Assembly (NCBI GenBank): GCA_951812795.1
Contig: OX638325.1
Location: 868,001-932,000, forward strand
Length of the DNA: 64,000 bases
Reading direction: 5' to 3'
Source of the DNA: an uncultured Dehalococcoidia bacterium
Lineage (GTDB): Bacteria; Chloroflexota; Dehalococcoidia; Lucifugimonadales; Lucifugimonadaceae
Shown one piece after another: positions 1,083 to 6,635 of this stretch. A program made the position numbers and the translations under genes. A model generated the notes under the pieces. That model ran no database searches and was not told where the DNA came from. It saw nothing but the letters and a program-made list of their open reading frames with translations. Within the stretch, counting starts at the first letter, position 1, and the number at the start of each line of letters is the position of its first letter.

Positions 1083-2312
1083 ATGATCTCCATCAATTCA
1101 ACACCTAAGACCATCATCCCGGTCACTGAACTCGAACAATCGGCGTTCTGTCAGACCGAAGGGAATCTCCGCACGAAAACGCTTGAGCAAGAGTTCCAGT
1201 CCGGCGTGCGTTGGCAGAAGGTTCCGACGCGCTATCTCAAAATGACGCCCGAACAGGTCGAAGCTGGCATCCGATACGCTCGCAAAGAGATCGGGACCAA
1301 AGCCGTGGTCCTCGGCCACCATTACCAGCGCGACGATGTCATTCAATTCGCCGATTTCCGTGGCGACTCATATCTGCTCTCGAAACAGGCAGCGGCCGCG
1401 AAGGAAGCGAAGTGGATCATCTTCTGCGGCGTCCACTTCATGGCCGAAACTGCGGACCTGCTCAGCGATGAAGATCAGAACGTGATCCTCCCCAACATGG
1501 CGGCCGGATGCTCGATGGCCGACATGGCGGCGACCGACGATGTGGAGGACGCGTGGGACGATCTTATGGACGTTCTCGGCGAAGGCAATGACGGGTCGGC
1601 GGAGATCATTCCAATCACGTATATGAACTCCACCGCGTCAATAAAGTCGCTTTGCGGGCGCAATGGAGGATTGGTTTGCACGTCGTCTAACGCCGACGCG
1701 GCCTACGATTGGGCGCTCGAACGCGGCAAGCGCATCCTGTTCCTCCCCGACCAACATCTCGGACGAAACACCGGATTGGCCAAGGGCATCCCGGCCGACG
1801 ATATGGTGGTGTGGAATCCCTTCAAACCAATGGGCGGCCTGACCGAATCGGAAATACACAGTAGCAAAGTCATCCTCTGGCAGGGCCACTGCTCAGTGCA
1901 CACCCGATTTACGGTGCGACAGATCGAAGACGCGCGACGCGACGATCCCGACGTCAATGTCGTGGTCCATCCGGAATGTGTGCGCGAGGTCGTGGACGCC
2001 GCCGATTATTATGGATCAACCGAGTTTATTCGCAAGACGGTCGAAAACGCTCCTTCCGGTACCTCTTGGGGCATCGGCACCGAGATCAACATGGTGAATC
2101 GCCTCCGTGACGATAACCCGGACAAGCGGGTCTTCTGTCTCGACCCGGTCGTCTGCCCTTGCGCGACGATGTATCGCATTCACCCTGCTTACGTGCTGTG
2201 GGTACTCGAAGGGATCATGGCTGGCGTCGGCATAAACGTCATCCAAGTTGACGCAGATACCAAACGTCATGCCCTAGTTGCCTTGGAACGCATGCTGGAA
2301 GTTGGCGGTTAA
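1083..2312 (+). CDS. nadA: Quinolinate synthase NadA
   Basis: Condenses iminoaspartate with dihydroxyacetone phosphate to quinolinate, the second step of de novo NAD synthesis, using an oxygen-sensitive 4Fe-4S cluster. The 409-residue protein carries the family hallmarks VVLGHHYQRDDV, GDSYLLS, FCGVHFMAETA, MNSTASIKSLCG, the VCTSSNA block and the VCPCATMYRI block. The likely cluster cysteines are C115, C199 and C358 or C360. It is somewhat longer than many NadA proteins because of about 50 extra N-terminal residues; the strong SD before ATG 1083 supports that start. No nadB or nadC is in the window, so the rest of the pathway must be elsewhere. Confidence 0.95.
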   Translation: MISINSTPKTIIPVTELEQSAFCQTEGNLRTKTLEQEFQSGVRWQKVPTRYLKMTPEQVEAGIRYARKEIGTKAVVLGHHYQRDDVIQFADFRGDSYLLSKQAAAAKEAKWIIFCGVHFMAETADLLSDEDQNVILPNMAAGCSMADMAATDDVEDAWDDLMDVLGEGNDGSAEIIPITYMNSTASIKSLCGRNGGLVCTSSNADAAYDWALERGKRILFLPDQHLGRNTGLAKGIPADDMVVWNPFKPMGGLTESEIHSSKVILWQGHCSVHTRFTVRQIEDARRDDPDVNVVVHPECVREVVDAADYYGSTEFIRKTVENAPSGTSWGIGTEINMVNRLRDDNPDKRVFCLDPVVCPCATMYRIHPAYVLWVLEGIMAGVGINVIQVDADTKRHALVALERMLEVGG

Positions 2313-2348
2313 CCCCGGCCTGCATACGCAATCAACGCGACGCATCCA

Positions 2349-3257
2349 ATGCAAGGCAACGGACAACCAGCGATTCAGCTGGAGAACCTGACCAAGCATT
2401 ACGGGGATGTAGTAGGCATCGAAAAGCTCAATCTCGATGTCAACGAAGGGGAGGTCTTCGGACTCCTGGGTCCAAACGGCGCCGGTAAGACCACCACCAT
2501 CCGCCTGATCCTCGACTTCATTCGCCCCACATCTGGCAAAGCTACGGTCTTCGGTATGTCGCCACGAAACGATGGCATCGATATCCGCCGCCGCGTCGGC
2601 TACCTTCCGGGCGACTTTGTGACGTATGACCACATGACGGGTGCCACGGTCACCGAGTACTTCACCAAGCTCCGACAAGGCAACCCGGTCAAACTTGAAG
2701 CGCTGTGCGATCGGTACAAACTCGACCTCTCCCGCAAAATCGGCCAACTCTCAAAAGGCAACAAACAGAAGATCGGCCTCGTCCAAGCCTTTATGACCGA
2801 CCCTGACCTCCTAATCCTCGACGAACCCACGGCAGGCTTAGACCCCCTCCTCCAGTACGAATTCCAAAAGATGATTCACGAGGAAAAGGATCAAGGCAAA
2901 ACCATCTTCATGTCCTCGCATGTCATGTCGGAAGTTGAAGCCACCTGCGATCGAGTCGGCATCATCCGAGACGGCGAATTGGTGACCATCGACACGGTGG
3001 CCCACCTTACCGAATTAAGCCTTTGGACCGTCAAAATCACCTTCACTCAACCCGTCTCATCCGACACCTTCGACAACCTCCTCGGCGTAGCCGTAACTGA
3101 CAACGTTGACAACCGCACCTTCAATCTTTCAGTCAGCGGCGAGGGGGCGATGGATTCGCTGATCAAAACCGCCGCCAAATATCCCGTTCAAACCTTCGAG
3201 AGCCAACACGCCTCATTAGAAGACGCTTTCTTGAAGTACTACTCAGTCGACGAATAA
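2349..3257 (+). CDS. ABC-2 type exporter, ATP-binding protein
   Basis: Nucleotide-binding subunit of an ABC-2 (drug/lipid/antibiotic class) exporter acting at the inner face of the membrane. The 302 residues show Walker A GPNGAGKTT (41-49), a non-canonical signature LSKGNKQK (about 134-141) replacing LSGGQ, Walker B LLILDEP (154-160) and the switch-histidine region IFMSSHVMSE. The C-terminal 80 residues form the accessory domain usual in this class. Its expected permease partner begins at 3935, but a hicAB pair on the opposite strand sits between them. A second ATPase at 23339 shares the unusual LSxGNxQK signature, so the two are probably paralogues. The substrate cannot be read from sequence. 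Confidence 0.9.
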   Translation: MQGNGQPAIQLENLTKHYGDVVGIEKLNLDVNEGEVFGLLGPNGAGKTTTIRLILDFIRPTSGKATVFGMSPRNDGIDIRRRVGYLPGDFVTYDHMTGATVTEYFTKLRQGNPVKLEALCDRYKLDLSRKIGQLSKGNKQKIGLVQAFMTDPDLLILDEPTAGLDPLLQYEFQKMIHEEKDQGKTIFMSSHVMSEVEATCDRVGIIRDGELVTIDTVAHLTELSLWTVKITFTQPVSSDTFDNLLGVAVTDNVDNRTFNLSVSGEGAMDSLIKTAAKYPVQTFESQHASLEDAFLKYYSVDE

Positions 3258-3349
3258 CGAACCCGGTAGCGGCTACTCGGCGAGATCCACCATGGACCTG
3301 ATCGGTGCGAGTCTGTGACCCGCGCTTGCACAATACAGGACGACAGCCC

Positions 3350-3583
3350 TTATACCAACTGAAACTCTTCTTCTGAGACTTCAGCAGGCAAGGGAATCTC
3401 TTCGCCGTCCTCGACCATCGAGCGCAGATGCGATTTCGCGGCTTCGTGGATACGACGTATAACTTCCTCTCGTGTCGGCGCGACCGCGAAACATCCTGGC
3501 AACTCCACGATTTGAGCACCAAACGAAGTCGGTCCCTCCTCGATTTGCACGTGGTAGGTCACACTTTTAGGCATTTCCATCAT
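3350..3583 (-). CDS. hicB: HicB-family antitoxin
   Basis: Probable antitoxin that neutralises the adjacent HicA. The 77-residue product has the compact HicB fold signature: YHVQIEEGPTSFGAQIVELPGCFAVAPTREE compares with the family pattern of an N-terminal strand, a central LPGC turn and an EEVIRRIHEA helix. It is shorter than HicB proteins that carry a C-terminal ribbon-helix-helix or HTH domain, so it may bind operator DNA weakly or not at all. Its ATG overlaps the hicA stop by four bases, which implies translational coupling. Two adjacent ATGs (3583 and 3580) are possible starts. Confidence 0.82.
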   Translation of the reverse strand: MMEMPKSVTYHVQIEEGPTSFGAQIVELPGCFAVAPTREEVIRRIHEAAKSHLRSMVEDGEEIPLPAEVSEEEFQLV

Positions 3584-3774
3584 CTAAGTCCCAGTTGCCT
3601 CAAGATGCTGTTCCAAGTTTTGGGGGGAATGTCATCACGTGGATGTCCAGCGATAGTAACTCTGCCCGGTTTGTCCGGATGCTTGAATTGACGGTGGCTC
3701 CCGCCTGACGTCCGAATTTCGTACCAACCTTCGTCACGAGCCAACCTCAACGCTTCACGGACCTTATTCGGCAT
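3580..3774 (-). CDS. hicA: HicA-family mRNA interferase toxin
   Basis: Small basic toxin of the HicAB type; known HicA proteins have a double-stranded-RNA-binding-like fold and cleave mRNA in a ribosome-independent way. The 64 residues contain the catalytic signature GGSHRQFKHP with the histidine at about residue 27, followed by TIAGHPRDDIPPKTWNSILRQLGL, a typical HicA C-terminus. It is transcribed first, with hicB overlapping its end. The pair lies antisense between the ATPase (ends 3257) and permease (starts 3935) of one ABC transporter, suggesting insertion into an existing operon. Confidence 0.88.
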   Translation of the reverse strand: MPNKVREALRLARDEGWYEIRTSGGSHRQFKHPDKPGRVTIAGHPRDDIPPKTWNSILRQLGLR

Positions 3775-3934
3775 ATCGCAACCATCTTTCTGTCACTATC
3801 CCCCTTTGTTGACGTAACCATCTTGGTTCTCGATATGCGGTCTTCGTGACCTGTCGGGGCGGGGCTACAACTCGACACGCCGTGCCGATGTGTAGTATGA
3901 AAGTCAGTATATTAGGCGTTGCTTGAATCCGTCC

Positions 3935-4726
3935 ATGTACAACAACATCTTCCTCAAAACGCTGCGGGACGGCCGTCGCTCGATGCTCCTTTACTCGCTC
4001 GGTCAATTCATCATCGGCATCTACGTCGCCCTCTTGTTCCCTGACGTCGCGACCAGCTTCGCCGGCATGATCGAAGAACTCCCAGAGTTCATACAAGGCT
4101 TCATCGGCAGCGCGGAAGAGTTCGCGACGCCAGAAGGATTCTTCACCGCCGACCCTTACGGCATCATCACTCCCGTCTTGATTATCGCCCTCGCCGTTAA
4201 CCGAGGCATGGGAGCCGTCGCTGGTGAAGAACATGCTCACACCCTTGATCAGCTCCTCGGAAATCCCATCAGCCGGACCACCGTCTACATCCACAAGAGC
4301 TTCGCCTTAATCATCGACTGCGTTCTCCCAGTGGCCGCCATCGCCATCGCCATCATCCTCGGCGCCGTGATAATGGACTACTCGGTATCCCTCTCCGGAC
4401 TCTTTTTCATGTCGCTCAGCCTCTTGCTGCTCGGCTACGCCACTGGTTTCATGGCTCTCAGCCTAGGCGCCGCAACCGGCAGTAAGACCCTCGCCATTGC
4501 GATACCTGCCGCCATCGTCGGAATCGGTTACCTCATTAATATCCTCGTTCCGATAGTCGAATCTCTCTCCGACCTCAAATACATCTCCATCCTCCACTAC
4601 TACATCGGCGACAAACCGTTCATCAACGGCATCACACCTTGGCACGCCTTGGTACTCATAGCCATTGCAGCCATATCCTTCGCCGTGGGTTTACAGCGCT
4701 TCAACAGCCGCGACCTACGCGGTTGA
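3935..4726 (+). CDS. ABC-2 type exporter, permease (single-domain)
   Basis: Membrane subunit likely paired with the ATPase at 2349. The 263 residues contain about six hydrophobic segments (near residues 18-38, 85-105, 125-150, 155-180, 190-210 and 235-258) and the cytoplasmic motif VAGEEHAHTLDQLLGNPISR, which is the coupling helix seen in ABC-2 permeases. ATG 3935 is preferred to a TTG at 3923 that would add four residues. It resembles the C-terminal half of the 553-residue permease at 24271, sharing the AGEE...L..PISR block, the YY.G..P.(I/V)NG motif and the ..RRDIR/SRDLR end. Substrate unknown. Confidence 0.85.
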   Translation: MYNNIFLKTLRDGRRSMLLYSLGQFIIGIYVALLFPDVATSFAGMIEELPEFIQGFIGSAEEFATPEGFFTADPYGIITPVLIIALAVNRGMGAVAGEEHAHTLDQLLGNPISRTTVYIHKSFALIIDCVLPVAAIAIAIILGAVIMDYSVSLSGLFFMSLSLLLLGYATGFMALSLGAATGSKTLAIAIPAAIVGIGYLINILVPIVESLSDLKYISILHYYIGDKPFINGITPWHALVLIAIAAISFAVGLQRFNSRDLRG

Positions 4727-4735
4727 GTTTTTGGC

Positions 4736-4924
4736 ATGTGCCGGTTGTCTTCTGAAGTGTTCGCGGTCGCCGGTGGAGGTGGCGCGCTGGCAACCGCAGC
4801 GACGTTCTTCAAAGCCCATTGGGACGCTATCAAAGATCGCAGAGCGTTTAGGGCCGCGAAGGACCGCGAACGCCGCGGTGAAAAGCCGCCGTCAGACGTC
4901 CAGGGAACCAGCGGTTCAGATTAG
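4736..4924 (+). CDS. Possible small protein of 62 residues
   Basis: Starts nine bases after the permease stop. It has a short glycine/alanine-rich hydrophobic stretch (VAGGGGALATAATFF) followed by a charged tail rich in Arg, Lys and Asp. No family is recognised and no convincing SD is visible, so it may be a non-coding tail of the operon. Confidence 0.25.
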   Translation: MCRLSSEVFAVAGGGGALATAATFFKAHWDAIKDRRAFRAAKDRERRGEKPPSDVQGTSGSD

Positions 4925-5110
4925 GAGATCGACTTTATCGGATGAGATTTTTACAATAATGAATACATACGATCCTAGCTACGCGTGGCTGGCCTGAGTA
5001 GTGGTGTGAATATCGGTTCCGATCAAGTCTGATCGATGCTCAGTGCGTATTTCAAAATAAAACAACCAAATCTAATGGTCCAACGGGCGGTTCAGGTAAG
5101 GACGAAATCA
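4925..5110. other. AT-richer spacer before the HEPN gene
   Basis: No gene recognised. Base composition is visibly more AT-rich than the flanks, and in-frame ATG codons at 5036 and 5075 lack an SD. Confidence 0.4.
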
Positions 5111-6577
5111 ATGGTTAAAATACCCACCTTTCATCAAAAACACGTCAATGATTTTTGGCGCGGTGCCAACGGCATCACACCACAGACACCGTACGATGCC
5201 GAGGTTGAAGTGGAAGACGGTGAAGTGTTTCCTGGCAAGGCTGTATTTTCAATGTCTGAAAGAGGCATGATCGCCGAATGTTCGCTAGACAGCGACGACG
5301 AGTTATTGCCTCACAAACTTCAAGCAGACAGCAATACTACGCTACGAGTTCCGCAATTCGGTTTCGAAGGGAGTGTCCACGTCTATCGCGTTCCCGGGAT
5401 CACGTGGACACAAAATCGCCCATCCGGTAATCCGCAAATCGGTTTTGTCGTCGACAAGGTTGACCTGCCTTGGACAAGCGATGAACTATCTCACTTCGTG
5501 GTTGGCGCGTCGGGAATACCGGATTTCTGGTACGACGATGCGATGTTCAAATATGGGACAACGGATCGTGGGAAAGATGTCGATAAAGCAAGGTTGGGGA
5601 GTTCAATGATTCCGCGCATGACCATTGAATCCGATGAATGGTGGATTCGCGTTGCTAAATTGAATCCAATCGAGACTGATGACGAAAGCGACGACACTCA
5701 TCGAATCACGATTCAGATGAAGGACGGTGGCTCCGACCGCTCGGAATACGATCGATTCTTCGAACAATTCTCCCCGTTGCTGAAATTCATATTCGGTTCG
5801 ACTCCGGCACTGTCCATTGGAGTTGGTTACGCGTCAGGCGGCGGTGCGAGTTGGGGACAGGTCTACAACTCGAAACCATTAGCCGGCACTCGAAACAATT
5901 GGTTTTCGAAACTCGGCTCCTCGCAGCGAGAATTCGATTTGGACCAGATGTTGACTGGGTATCTCAACCTGATTCACAGTGATCCAAACAACGATTCGGT
6001 TTTCAGAAAGCTGTTTCACCATTACGCGGTCAGCGAGCATTTCCTGTCGCTTGGATTGGTGGAAATGGCATTCAACGCCAGTTTCGCCGCACTCGAGGGA
6101 ATGTGTAAATTCATACTGTCTACACCGTCGTTCAAGGGCGACCAAGCGAAATTCATCACCTTGGATCAAGGCGATGCAATCGGCAGGTTCAAGAGTCAGC
6201 AAACCGAGAAAGGAATGCGCCACGTCGTAGACGCAATGGTCAGTGCAATCACGAACGGAGAGAGCAACCAACTCACAATCCCTGAGAAGAACAAAAACCC
6301 ACATGTAATCGACGTACTGAATAGTCGCCGAAACGAAACCGTACATCTAGAACTGGACGAGAGAGCCGGTGCAACTTCAATCCGTGACTATCAGTTGTGG
6401 AACGCATCGCAGTACGTCTTCGAGTTGCTCGCGCTTTCGATCCTCAATCCGACAGGTAAGTTTCTTCTCCCAGATCGGACCAATCCGGGCAAGCACGAGA
6501 TCATGGGCAAAGATATGCTCGCCCACCTGAGATCAGGGCAAGTCAAATTCTCGTCCAGACCTGCCAAGAAAACATGA
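5111..6577 (+). CDS. Large protein with C-terminal HEPN-type RNxxxH motif, ApeA-like architecture
   Basis: Stand-alone protein of about 488 residues (513 if ATG 5036 is used). ATG 5111 is preferred because an AAGGA lies upstream of it, whereas 5036 and 5075 have no SD. The N-terminal 300 residues look beta-rich and mixed, with an early FPGKAVFS strand pattern. The C-terminal 180 residues are helical and contain MAFNASFAALEGMCKF followed by SRRNETVHLELD. R-N-x-x-x-H is the catalytic signature of HEPN ribonucleases. This two-part layout recalls ApeA-type antiphage proteins, known in the literature as abortive-infection HEPN nucleases; membership here is inferred. Codon use is more AT-rich than that of its neighbours, and it lies next to hicAB, consistent with transferred defence material. 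Confidence 0.6.
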   Translation: MVKIPTFHQKHVNDFWRGANGITPQTPYDAEVEVEDGEVFPGKAVFSMSERGMIAECSLDSDDELLPHKLQADSNTTLRVPQFGFEGSVHVYRVPGITWTQNRPSGNPQIGFVVDKVDLPWTSDELSHFVVGASGIPDFWYDDAMFKYGTTDRGKDVDKARLGSSMIPRMTIESDEWWIRVAKLNPIETDDESDDTHRITIQMKDGGSDRSEYDRFFEQFSPLLKFIFGSTPALSIGVGYASGGGASWGQVYNSKPLAGTRNNWFSKLGSSQREFDLDQMLTGYLNLIHSDPNNDSVFRKLFHHYAVSEHFLSLGLVEMAFNASFAALEGMCKFILSTPSFKGDQAKFITLDQGDAIGRFKSQQTEKGMRHVVDAMVSAITNGESNQLTIPEKNKNPHVIDVLNSRRNETVHLELDERAGATSIRDYQLWNASQYVFELLALSILNPTGKFLLPDRTNPGKHEIMGKDMLAHLRSGQVKFSSRPAKKT

Positions 6578-6635
6578 GCGTCTGGGATCGTATGTAGTTA
6601 CTTCTGCAAAACTGGTGATCGGGTTCGCGTGACCC

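Follow-up and report, generated by a model that had tools for sequence, protein, structure and literature searches.

What is the 488-residue orphan protein encoded roughly 5 kb into the window (the whole stretch of 64,000 nucleotides analysed here), and how did its gene come to lie beside cobO? The initial annotation regarded this protein, hereafter P0001, as a candidate ApeA-like HEPN effector standing beside a toxin-antitoxin pair. The parts of the gene that the discussion requires are as follows.

5111 to 6577, plus strand: P0001, 488-residue orphan protein and candidate stand-alone HEPN ribonuclease (reading frame and ribosome-binding site; no family match)
5098 to 5102, plus strand: AAGGA, located 8 nt ahead of the ATG at 5111 and likely its ribosome-binding site
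5036 to 5110, plus strand: upstream in-frame extension of 25 codons from an alternative ATG, judged less likely
5111 to 5905, plus strand: N-terminal half (residues 1-265), proposed as the sensor; rich in strands in a low-confidence model and without a family match
5939 to 6466, plus strand: helical C-terminal region spanning about residues 277-452; candidate HEPN domain by two low-confidence models and the motif-fixed test described below
6095 to 6097, plus strand: E329 of AALEG, 78 residues before R407
6329 to 6346, plus strand: R407-N-E-T-V-H412, putative RNase motif

The frame from 5111 to 6577 is not a product of chance, because the longest stop-free run among 2000 resampled sequences of equal composition (363 codons) was far shorter than its 488 codons. 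Translation from the ATG at 5036 would yield 513 residues without an AAGGA-type signal, and the start at 5111 is favoured because AAGGA precedes it. Thus, the gene as originally described, with SRRNETVH at residues 405-412, is real by its translation, ribosome-binding site and length. The gene was also said to be more AT-rich than its neighbours, and its GC content is indeed 50% against 57% around it; in the first 14 kb of the window, P0001 stands at approximately 0.50 and the remaining 500-base steps at 0.52-0.61.

The surroundings of the gene were compared with those in other genomes of the same genus, for which the following features are needed.

4941 to 6620, no strand: insert, approximate extent, absent from the outgroups G002 and G001 and from the sister genome G004
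4949 to 4984, plus strand: left arm of an inverted repeat framing the gene
6578 to 6611, minus strand: right arm of this repeat, immediately following the stop codon
6636 to 7214, minus strand: cobO, native right neighbour, convergent
3350 to 3774, minus strand: hicAB toxin-antitoxin pair, a separate insertion outside the P0001 unit

The gene order reads miaB, nadA, an ABC ATPase gene (2349-3257), hicAB, a permease-like frame (3923-4726; named by eye, with no NCBIfam match), a 62-codon frame (4736-4924), P0001, cobO, a corrinoid-type ABC transporter and cobQ. In both same-genus outgroups, G002 and G001, about 90 bp separate the stretch following the permease from cobO and the P0001 gene is absent; the loose alignment of their sequences with the window breaks off near 4940 and resumes near 6620. 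The sister G004, of which the DNA is 92-94% identical, joins window position 4887 to 6628. The gap in G004 also removes part of the 62-codon frame and ends at the cobO stop, and G004 may have lost the P0001 gene by a deletion of its own. We therefore regard the P0001 segment as an insertion because it is absent in G001 and G002, not on the grounds of G004. Among the other genomes, cobO of G005 is preceded by a different left neighbour, that of G003 lies close to a contig end, and no cobO match was found in G006. The 62-codon frame on the plus strand is kept in G004, G002 and G001 at the DNA level with a diverging end, and has no Pfam match. The insert comprises a single gene in about 1.7 kb, with a GC content of 49.5% against 56.8%. 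Altogether, the P0001 gene is a genus-internal, strain-specific one-gene insertion, which bears out its description as stand-alone and agrees with horizontal acquisition.

The toxin-antitoxin pair 1.3 kb away was correctly recognized, as HicA belongs to PF07927 (7e-20) and HicB to PF15919 (3e-10). The pair lies between the ABC ATPase gene and the permease-like neighbour, two genes that are adjacent in G002 and G001, both of which lack hicAB. On the other hand, G004 possesses hicAB without P0001. An association between hicAB and P0001 was rejected, as the two occupy different sites and were separate events; since the pair is a separate insertion shared with a genome lacking P0001, the neighbourhood initially put forward as support carries no weight for P0001. 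The arrival of hicAB is perhaps older than that of the P0001 insert. No defence gene was found beside P0001 by Pfam, NCBIfam and PADLOC searches of its neighbours. Elsewhere in the same genome, the locus L002 (G000:C1, about 1368717-1370969) contains a candidate IetAS defence system, composed of an AAA ATPase matching PADLOC IetA (L002 1060-2091; 5e-90) and a subtilase matching PADLOC IetS (2098-3312; 8.5e-50), the frame of the latter running off the locus.

The one-gene insert with its framing repeats is the new part of this locus. The two arms are 34-36 nt long, imperfect and only about 80% alike, and are best conserved on the gene side. When the comparison was restricted to the flanks, the pair scored 33 against a mean of 13.7, none of 2000 resampled flank pairs being as good, and none of the 474 flank pairs of other frames reached this score (maximum 27). 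The flanks of hicAB were unremarkable by the same measure (489 of 2000 resampled as good). The repeat had been noticed before the flank test, so that the test was not blind, while the ends of the insert come from separate data, and the arms sit at those ends as placed by the outgroups. It is a real possibility, albeit one we are inclined to doubt, that the arms are a chance or regulatory inverted repeat instead of the ends of a mobile unit. The low likeness of the arms and their better conservation on the gene side would suit such a repeat, and so would an ungapped search of the whole region, in which 37 of 100 resampled sequences were as good and the repeat was not unusual. Likewise, no third copy exists in the genome G000 and no target duplication was seen; a direct repeat of 5 bases immediately beyond the arms, spotted by eye, was dropped as expected by chance. 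The pair was not found in four same-genus genomes with up to 3 mismatches allowed. Matches to the repeat core in other genomes, those printed being confined to the core, were roughly no more frequent than those to a reversed control pattern. Against a chance or regulatory repeat stand the flank-restricted scores and the coincidence of the arms with the outgroup-defined ends.

Mobile insertion cassettes are passenger genes between inverted repeats that carry no transposase of their own. The P0001 insert has this organization, namely a passenger gene between terminal inverted repeats with no transposase gene between the arms, as do the MIC231-type cassettes of Bacillus in the passages of PMC6542083 that deal with them. 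By this analogy, the insert fits a non-autonomous one-gene mobile unit. It differs from the Bacillus cassettes in that no target duplication was seen and no insertion sequence sharing the P0001 ends was found in G000 or the four same-genus genomes; the donor may lie elsewhere.

P0001 itself had no match at E<=10 in Pfam, PADLOC, NCBIfam and PHROGs, nor did its fragments in Pfam. In protein searches, of which the genome sets overlap in part, P0001 was found only in its own genome (0 of 196 other relatives), and no real homologue was detected in 399 others of the phylum (a single chance match), 201 others of the class, 8 further genomes, and the phyla of a Poribacteria genome (84 genomes; a single chance match), a Bryobacterales genome (327) and a cyanobacterium (319). 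Nothing was found by pattern scans, which see close relatives only, in 84,980 species genomes and in viral contigs, or by tblastn against 72,556 plasmids and 50,697 phages. Four candidates were set aside as chance matches: L003 (36% over 70 residues; an unrelated 1010-residue frame takes up most of that contig region), L027 (41% over 51 residues, with an internal stop codon), L002 (E 0.19, within the region of the IetA-like gene) and PDB 8h8m (E 0.054, a ferritin). Targeted literature searches for the ApeA domain names and for phages and defence systems of SAR202, the presumed host group, found nothing.

The HEPN signature is judged here by the motif and what surrounds it. An R-x4-6-H motif with a polar residue after R is present in P0001 (R407-N-E-T-V-H412); the family-level model of HEPN, the definition of the motif and the RNase chemistry are taken from the portions of PMC3710099 that treat them. 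RN...H alone is weak evidence, as 3.2% of P0001 shuffles contain it and so do 10 of the 254 other long frames of the same genome. Requiring [AS][LFM]E 60-110 residues before it lowers these figures to 0.17% and to a single frame of the 254, this pattern having been picked after the sequence had been seen. We then held RN...H constant and scored the flanking residues for their likeness to 18 ApeA proteins (the motif-fixed test). P0001 received a z of 2.06, with 5 of 200 shuffles as good, while 12 chance RN...H segments from its own genome reached at most 1.15. A HEPN-like protein outside ApeA, encoded in L010, scored 2.56, and 16 of the 18 ApeA proteins, each left out in turn, scored 7.3 to 24.5 (the other two lack RN...H). 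The test has limited power because a protein adjoining an ApeA gene in L006, judged HEPN-like by eye, scored -0.25. Thus, the motif claimed initially is present and its surroundings look weakly HEPN-like, but no library match accompanies it.

We consider it somewhat unlikely that P0001 is no HEPN protein at all, but an orphan of another function carrying RN...H by chance. Such a reading draws on the 10 of 254 other frames with the same motif and on the lack of library or structure support for HEPN, the structure models being of low confidence; the surroundings and the spacing of RN...H in P0001 are nevertheless unlike those of the chance cases. The pLDDT averages 34 in the single-sequence model of P0001 and 44 in a model of residues 265-488 that was guided by ApeA and is partly circular by design. 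The mixed N-terminus and helical C-terminus described earlier agree with the secondary structure of these two low-confidence models only. Foldseek and VIA-align gave no HEPN match, and none of the 136 chains aligned to the models stood out as HEPN, which excludes nothing as the models are too poor for the result to bear meaning.

The protein of L010 (1414-2448, minus strand), from another genome of the phylum, comprises 344 residues, carries RNKIVH and weakly matches PF18735 (E 0.002, below the cut-off) and PADLOC DzbB (1.5e-4). The frame in L006 (22-1401, minus strand) directly adjoins the ApeA gene and bears a second RN...H of its own (RNHFAH), so that the two possibly form a two-gene unit.

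The layout of P0001 resembles that of ApeA, which in the set used is one protein with a length of 436-508 residues (PF18862, ApeA_NTD1, followed by PF18739, HEPN_Apea; PADLOC Cas13-ApeA, PDC-S58). In both, a front half is followed by a C-terminal RN...H, and E lies 53-100 residues before the motif R in ApeA proteins and 78 in P0001. In L005 (471 residues), a proline, E and R are located at 223, 325 and 406, respectively, compared with 222, 329 and 407 in P0001 (488 residues). Unlike the layout, neither half of P0001 is detectably homologous to ApeA by family models or profiles. PF18739 matched neither P0001, whole or in fragments, at E<=10 nor any protein of its genome, PF18862 matched neither P0001 nor its fragments, residues 1-265 included, at E<=10, and the PADLOC Cas13-ApeA models were blind to P0001, whereas the ApeA proteins of L006 and L025 matched PF18739, PF18862 and the PADLOC models. 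PF18739 is rare in the phylum, with matches in 7 of 301 genomes, 4 of them over the cut-off. The N-terminal domain, which the initial annotation could not name, likewise has no match in Pfam as a whole.

The profile comparison suggested at the outset placed P0001 within the background. Against a profile of 18 ApeA proteins, P0001 scored -0.8 bits, a value lying inside the spread of scores given by 254 genome frames and 200 shuffles. With a subset of the controls (160 of 254) and of the shuffles (100 of 200), hhalign ranked P0001 40th of 161 when set among genome proteins and 22nd of 101 when set among shuffles. In a joint alignment with the 18 ApeA proteins it was no better than the controls, here 60 shuffles and 90 of the 128 length-matched controls. 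By halves, 69 of 200 shuffles were as good as the N-terminal and 20 of 200 as the C-terminal half. A MAFFT alignment of 13 proteins placed E329, R407, N408 and H412 in ApeA columns, but the alignment of E329 was lost once 18 ApeA proteins were taken and controls scored equally; we rejected this co-linearity, persuasive as it looked, as proof of membership.

Could P0001 be a true ApeA of which both halves, homologous to ApeA_NTD1 and HEPN_Apea, have diverged beyond the reach of sequence comparison? The equal length and order, with the near-identical positions in L005, and the 13-protein alignment would speak for it, and, according to the relevant part of PMC3710099, the N-terminal domain of ApeA has about 300 residues, consists mostly of strands and shows poor conservation. 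We nevertheless regard such divergence as improbable, considering that the family models recover their positive controls but not P0001, that its z of 2.06 falls far from those of the 16 ApeA proteins, and that its N-terminal half fares no better than many shuffles. ApeA membership was thus rejected by Pfam, PADLOC, profiles, hhalign, shuffles and the motif-fixed test. As far as the sequence goes, P0001 is probably HEPN, is not ApeA by any test applied and has no link to hicAB; its likeliest reading, on thin evidence, is that it behaves like a HEPN protein outside the ApeA family.

The length, order and spacing of P0001 match those of stand-alone HEPN proteins. Among possible counterparts, PD-T4-2, PD-T4-5 and PD-T7-3 are single-gene systems. 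These are listed among defence systems with a HEPN domain, PF18735, in the relevant entries of PMC10952713, and P0001 differs from them in having no PF18735 match. A closer parallel in description is Tha of Staphylococcus aureus prophages, presented in the Tha sections of PMC11087260 as a prophage-borne, stand-alone HEPN antiphage RNase that has an unrecognisable N-terminus and is activated by phage tail proteins. Like Tha, P0001 is stand-alone with a C-terminal R-N-x3-H (R265NSIMH270 in Tha); unlike Tha (301 residues), it has 488 residues, and the two are likened by description, not by sequence (PMC11087260, same sections).

For a real gene on a strain-specific insert with framing repeats, encoding RN...H in weakly HEPN-like surroundings, we tentatively favour, at a little short of an even chance, a one-gene cassette, acquired horizontally, of which the product is a stand-alone HEPN ribonuclease outside ApeA that acts by abortive infection. 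Sensing and RNA cutting are proposed by analogy with Tha, and the HEPN fold, the dimer, the RNase activity, the sensing and the antiphage role are inferred. The N-terminal half would sense a phage product; two C-terminal domains would pair, with R407 and H412 of both chains forming a metal-independent RNase site in the cleft; cellular and phage RNA would be cut, and the infected cell would stop growing. Strain-specific acquisition of single genes is typical of defence genes. This speaks against a HEPN protein that serves no antiphage purpose, for instance an RNase of the stress response or a toxin kept in check by an unlinked antitoxin, which we deem very unlikely even though no defence neighbour and no partner gene inside the insert were found.

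More speculatively, and in our estimate rather unlikely, P0001 founds a family of HEPN RNases with an unrelated sensor half that has spread as a transposase-less, repeat-framed one-gene defence cassette. If so, it would be a mobile immune gene reduced to the minimum, lodged on its own among housekeeping genes and not in a defence island or prophage. Defence genes have mostly been found through the company they keep in defence islands. A lone HEPN-like gene that is invisible to the libraries and sits in a repeat-framed insertion points to genes missed by island-based searches, and the framed insert offers a search rule, namely one-gene inserts with paired repeats between housekeeping genes.
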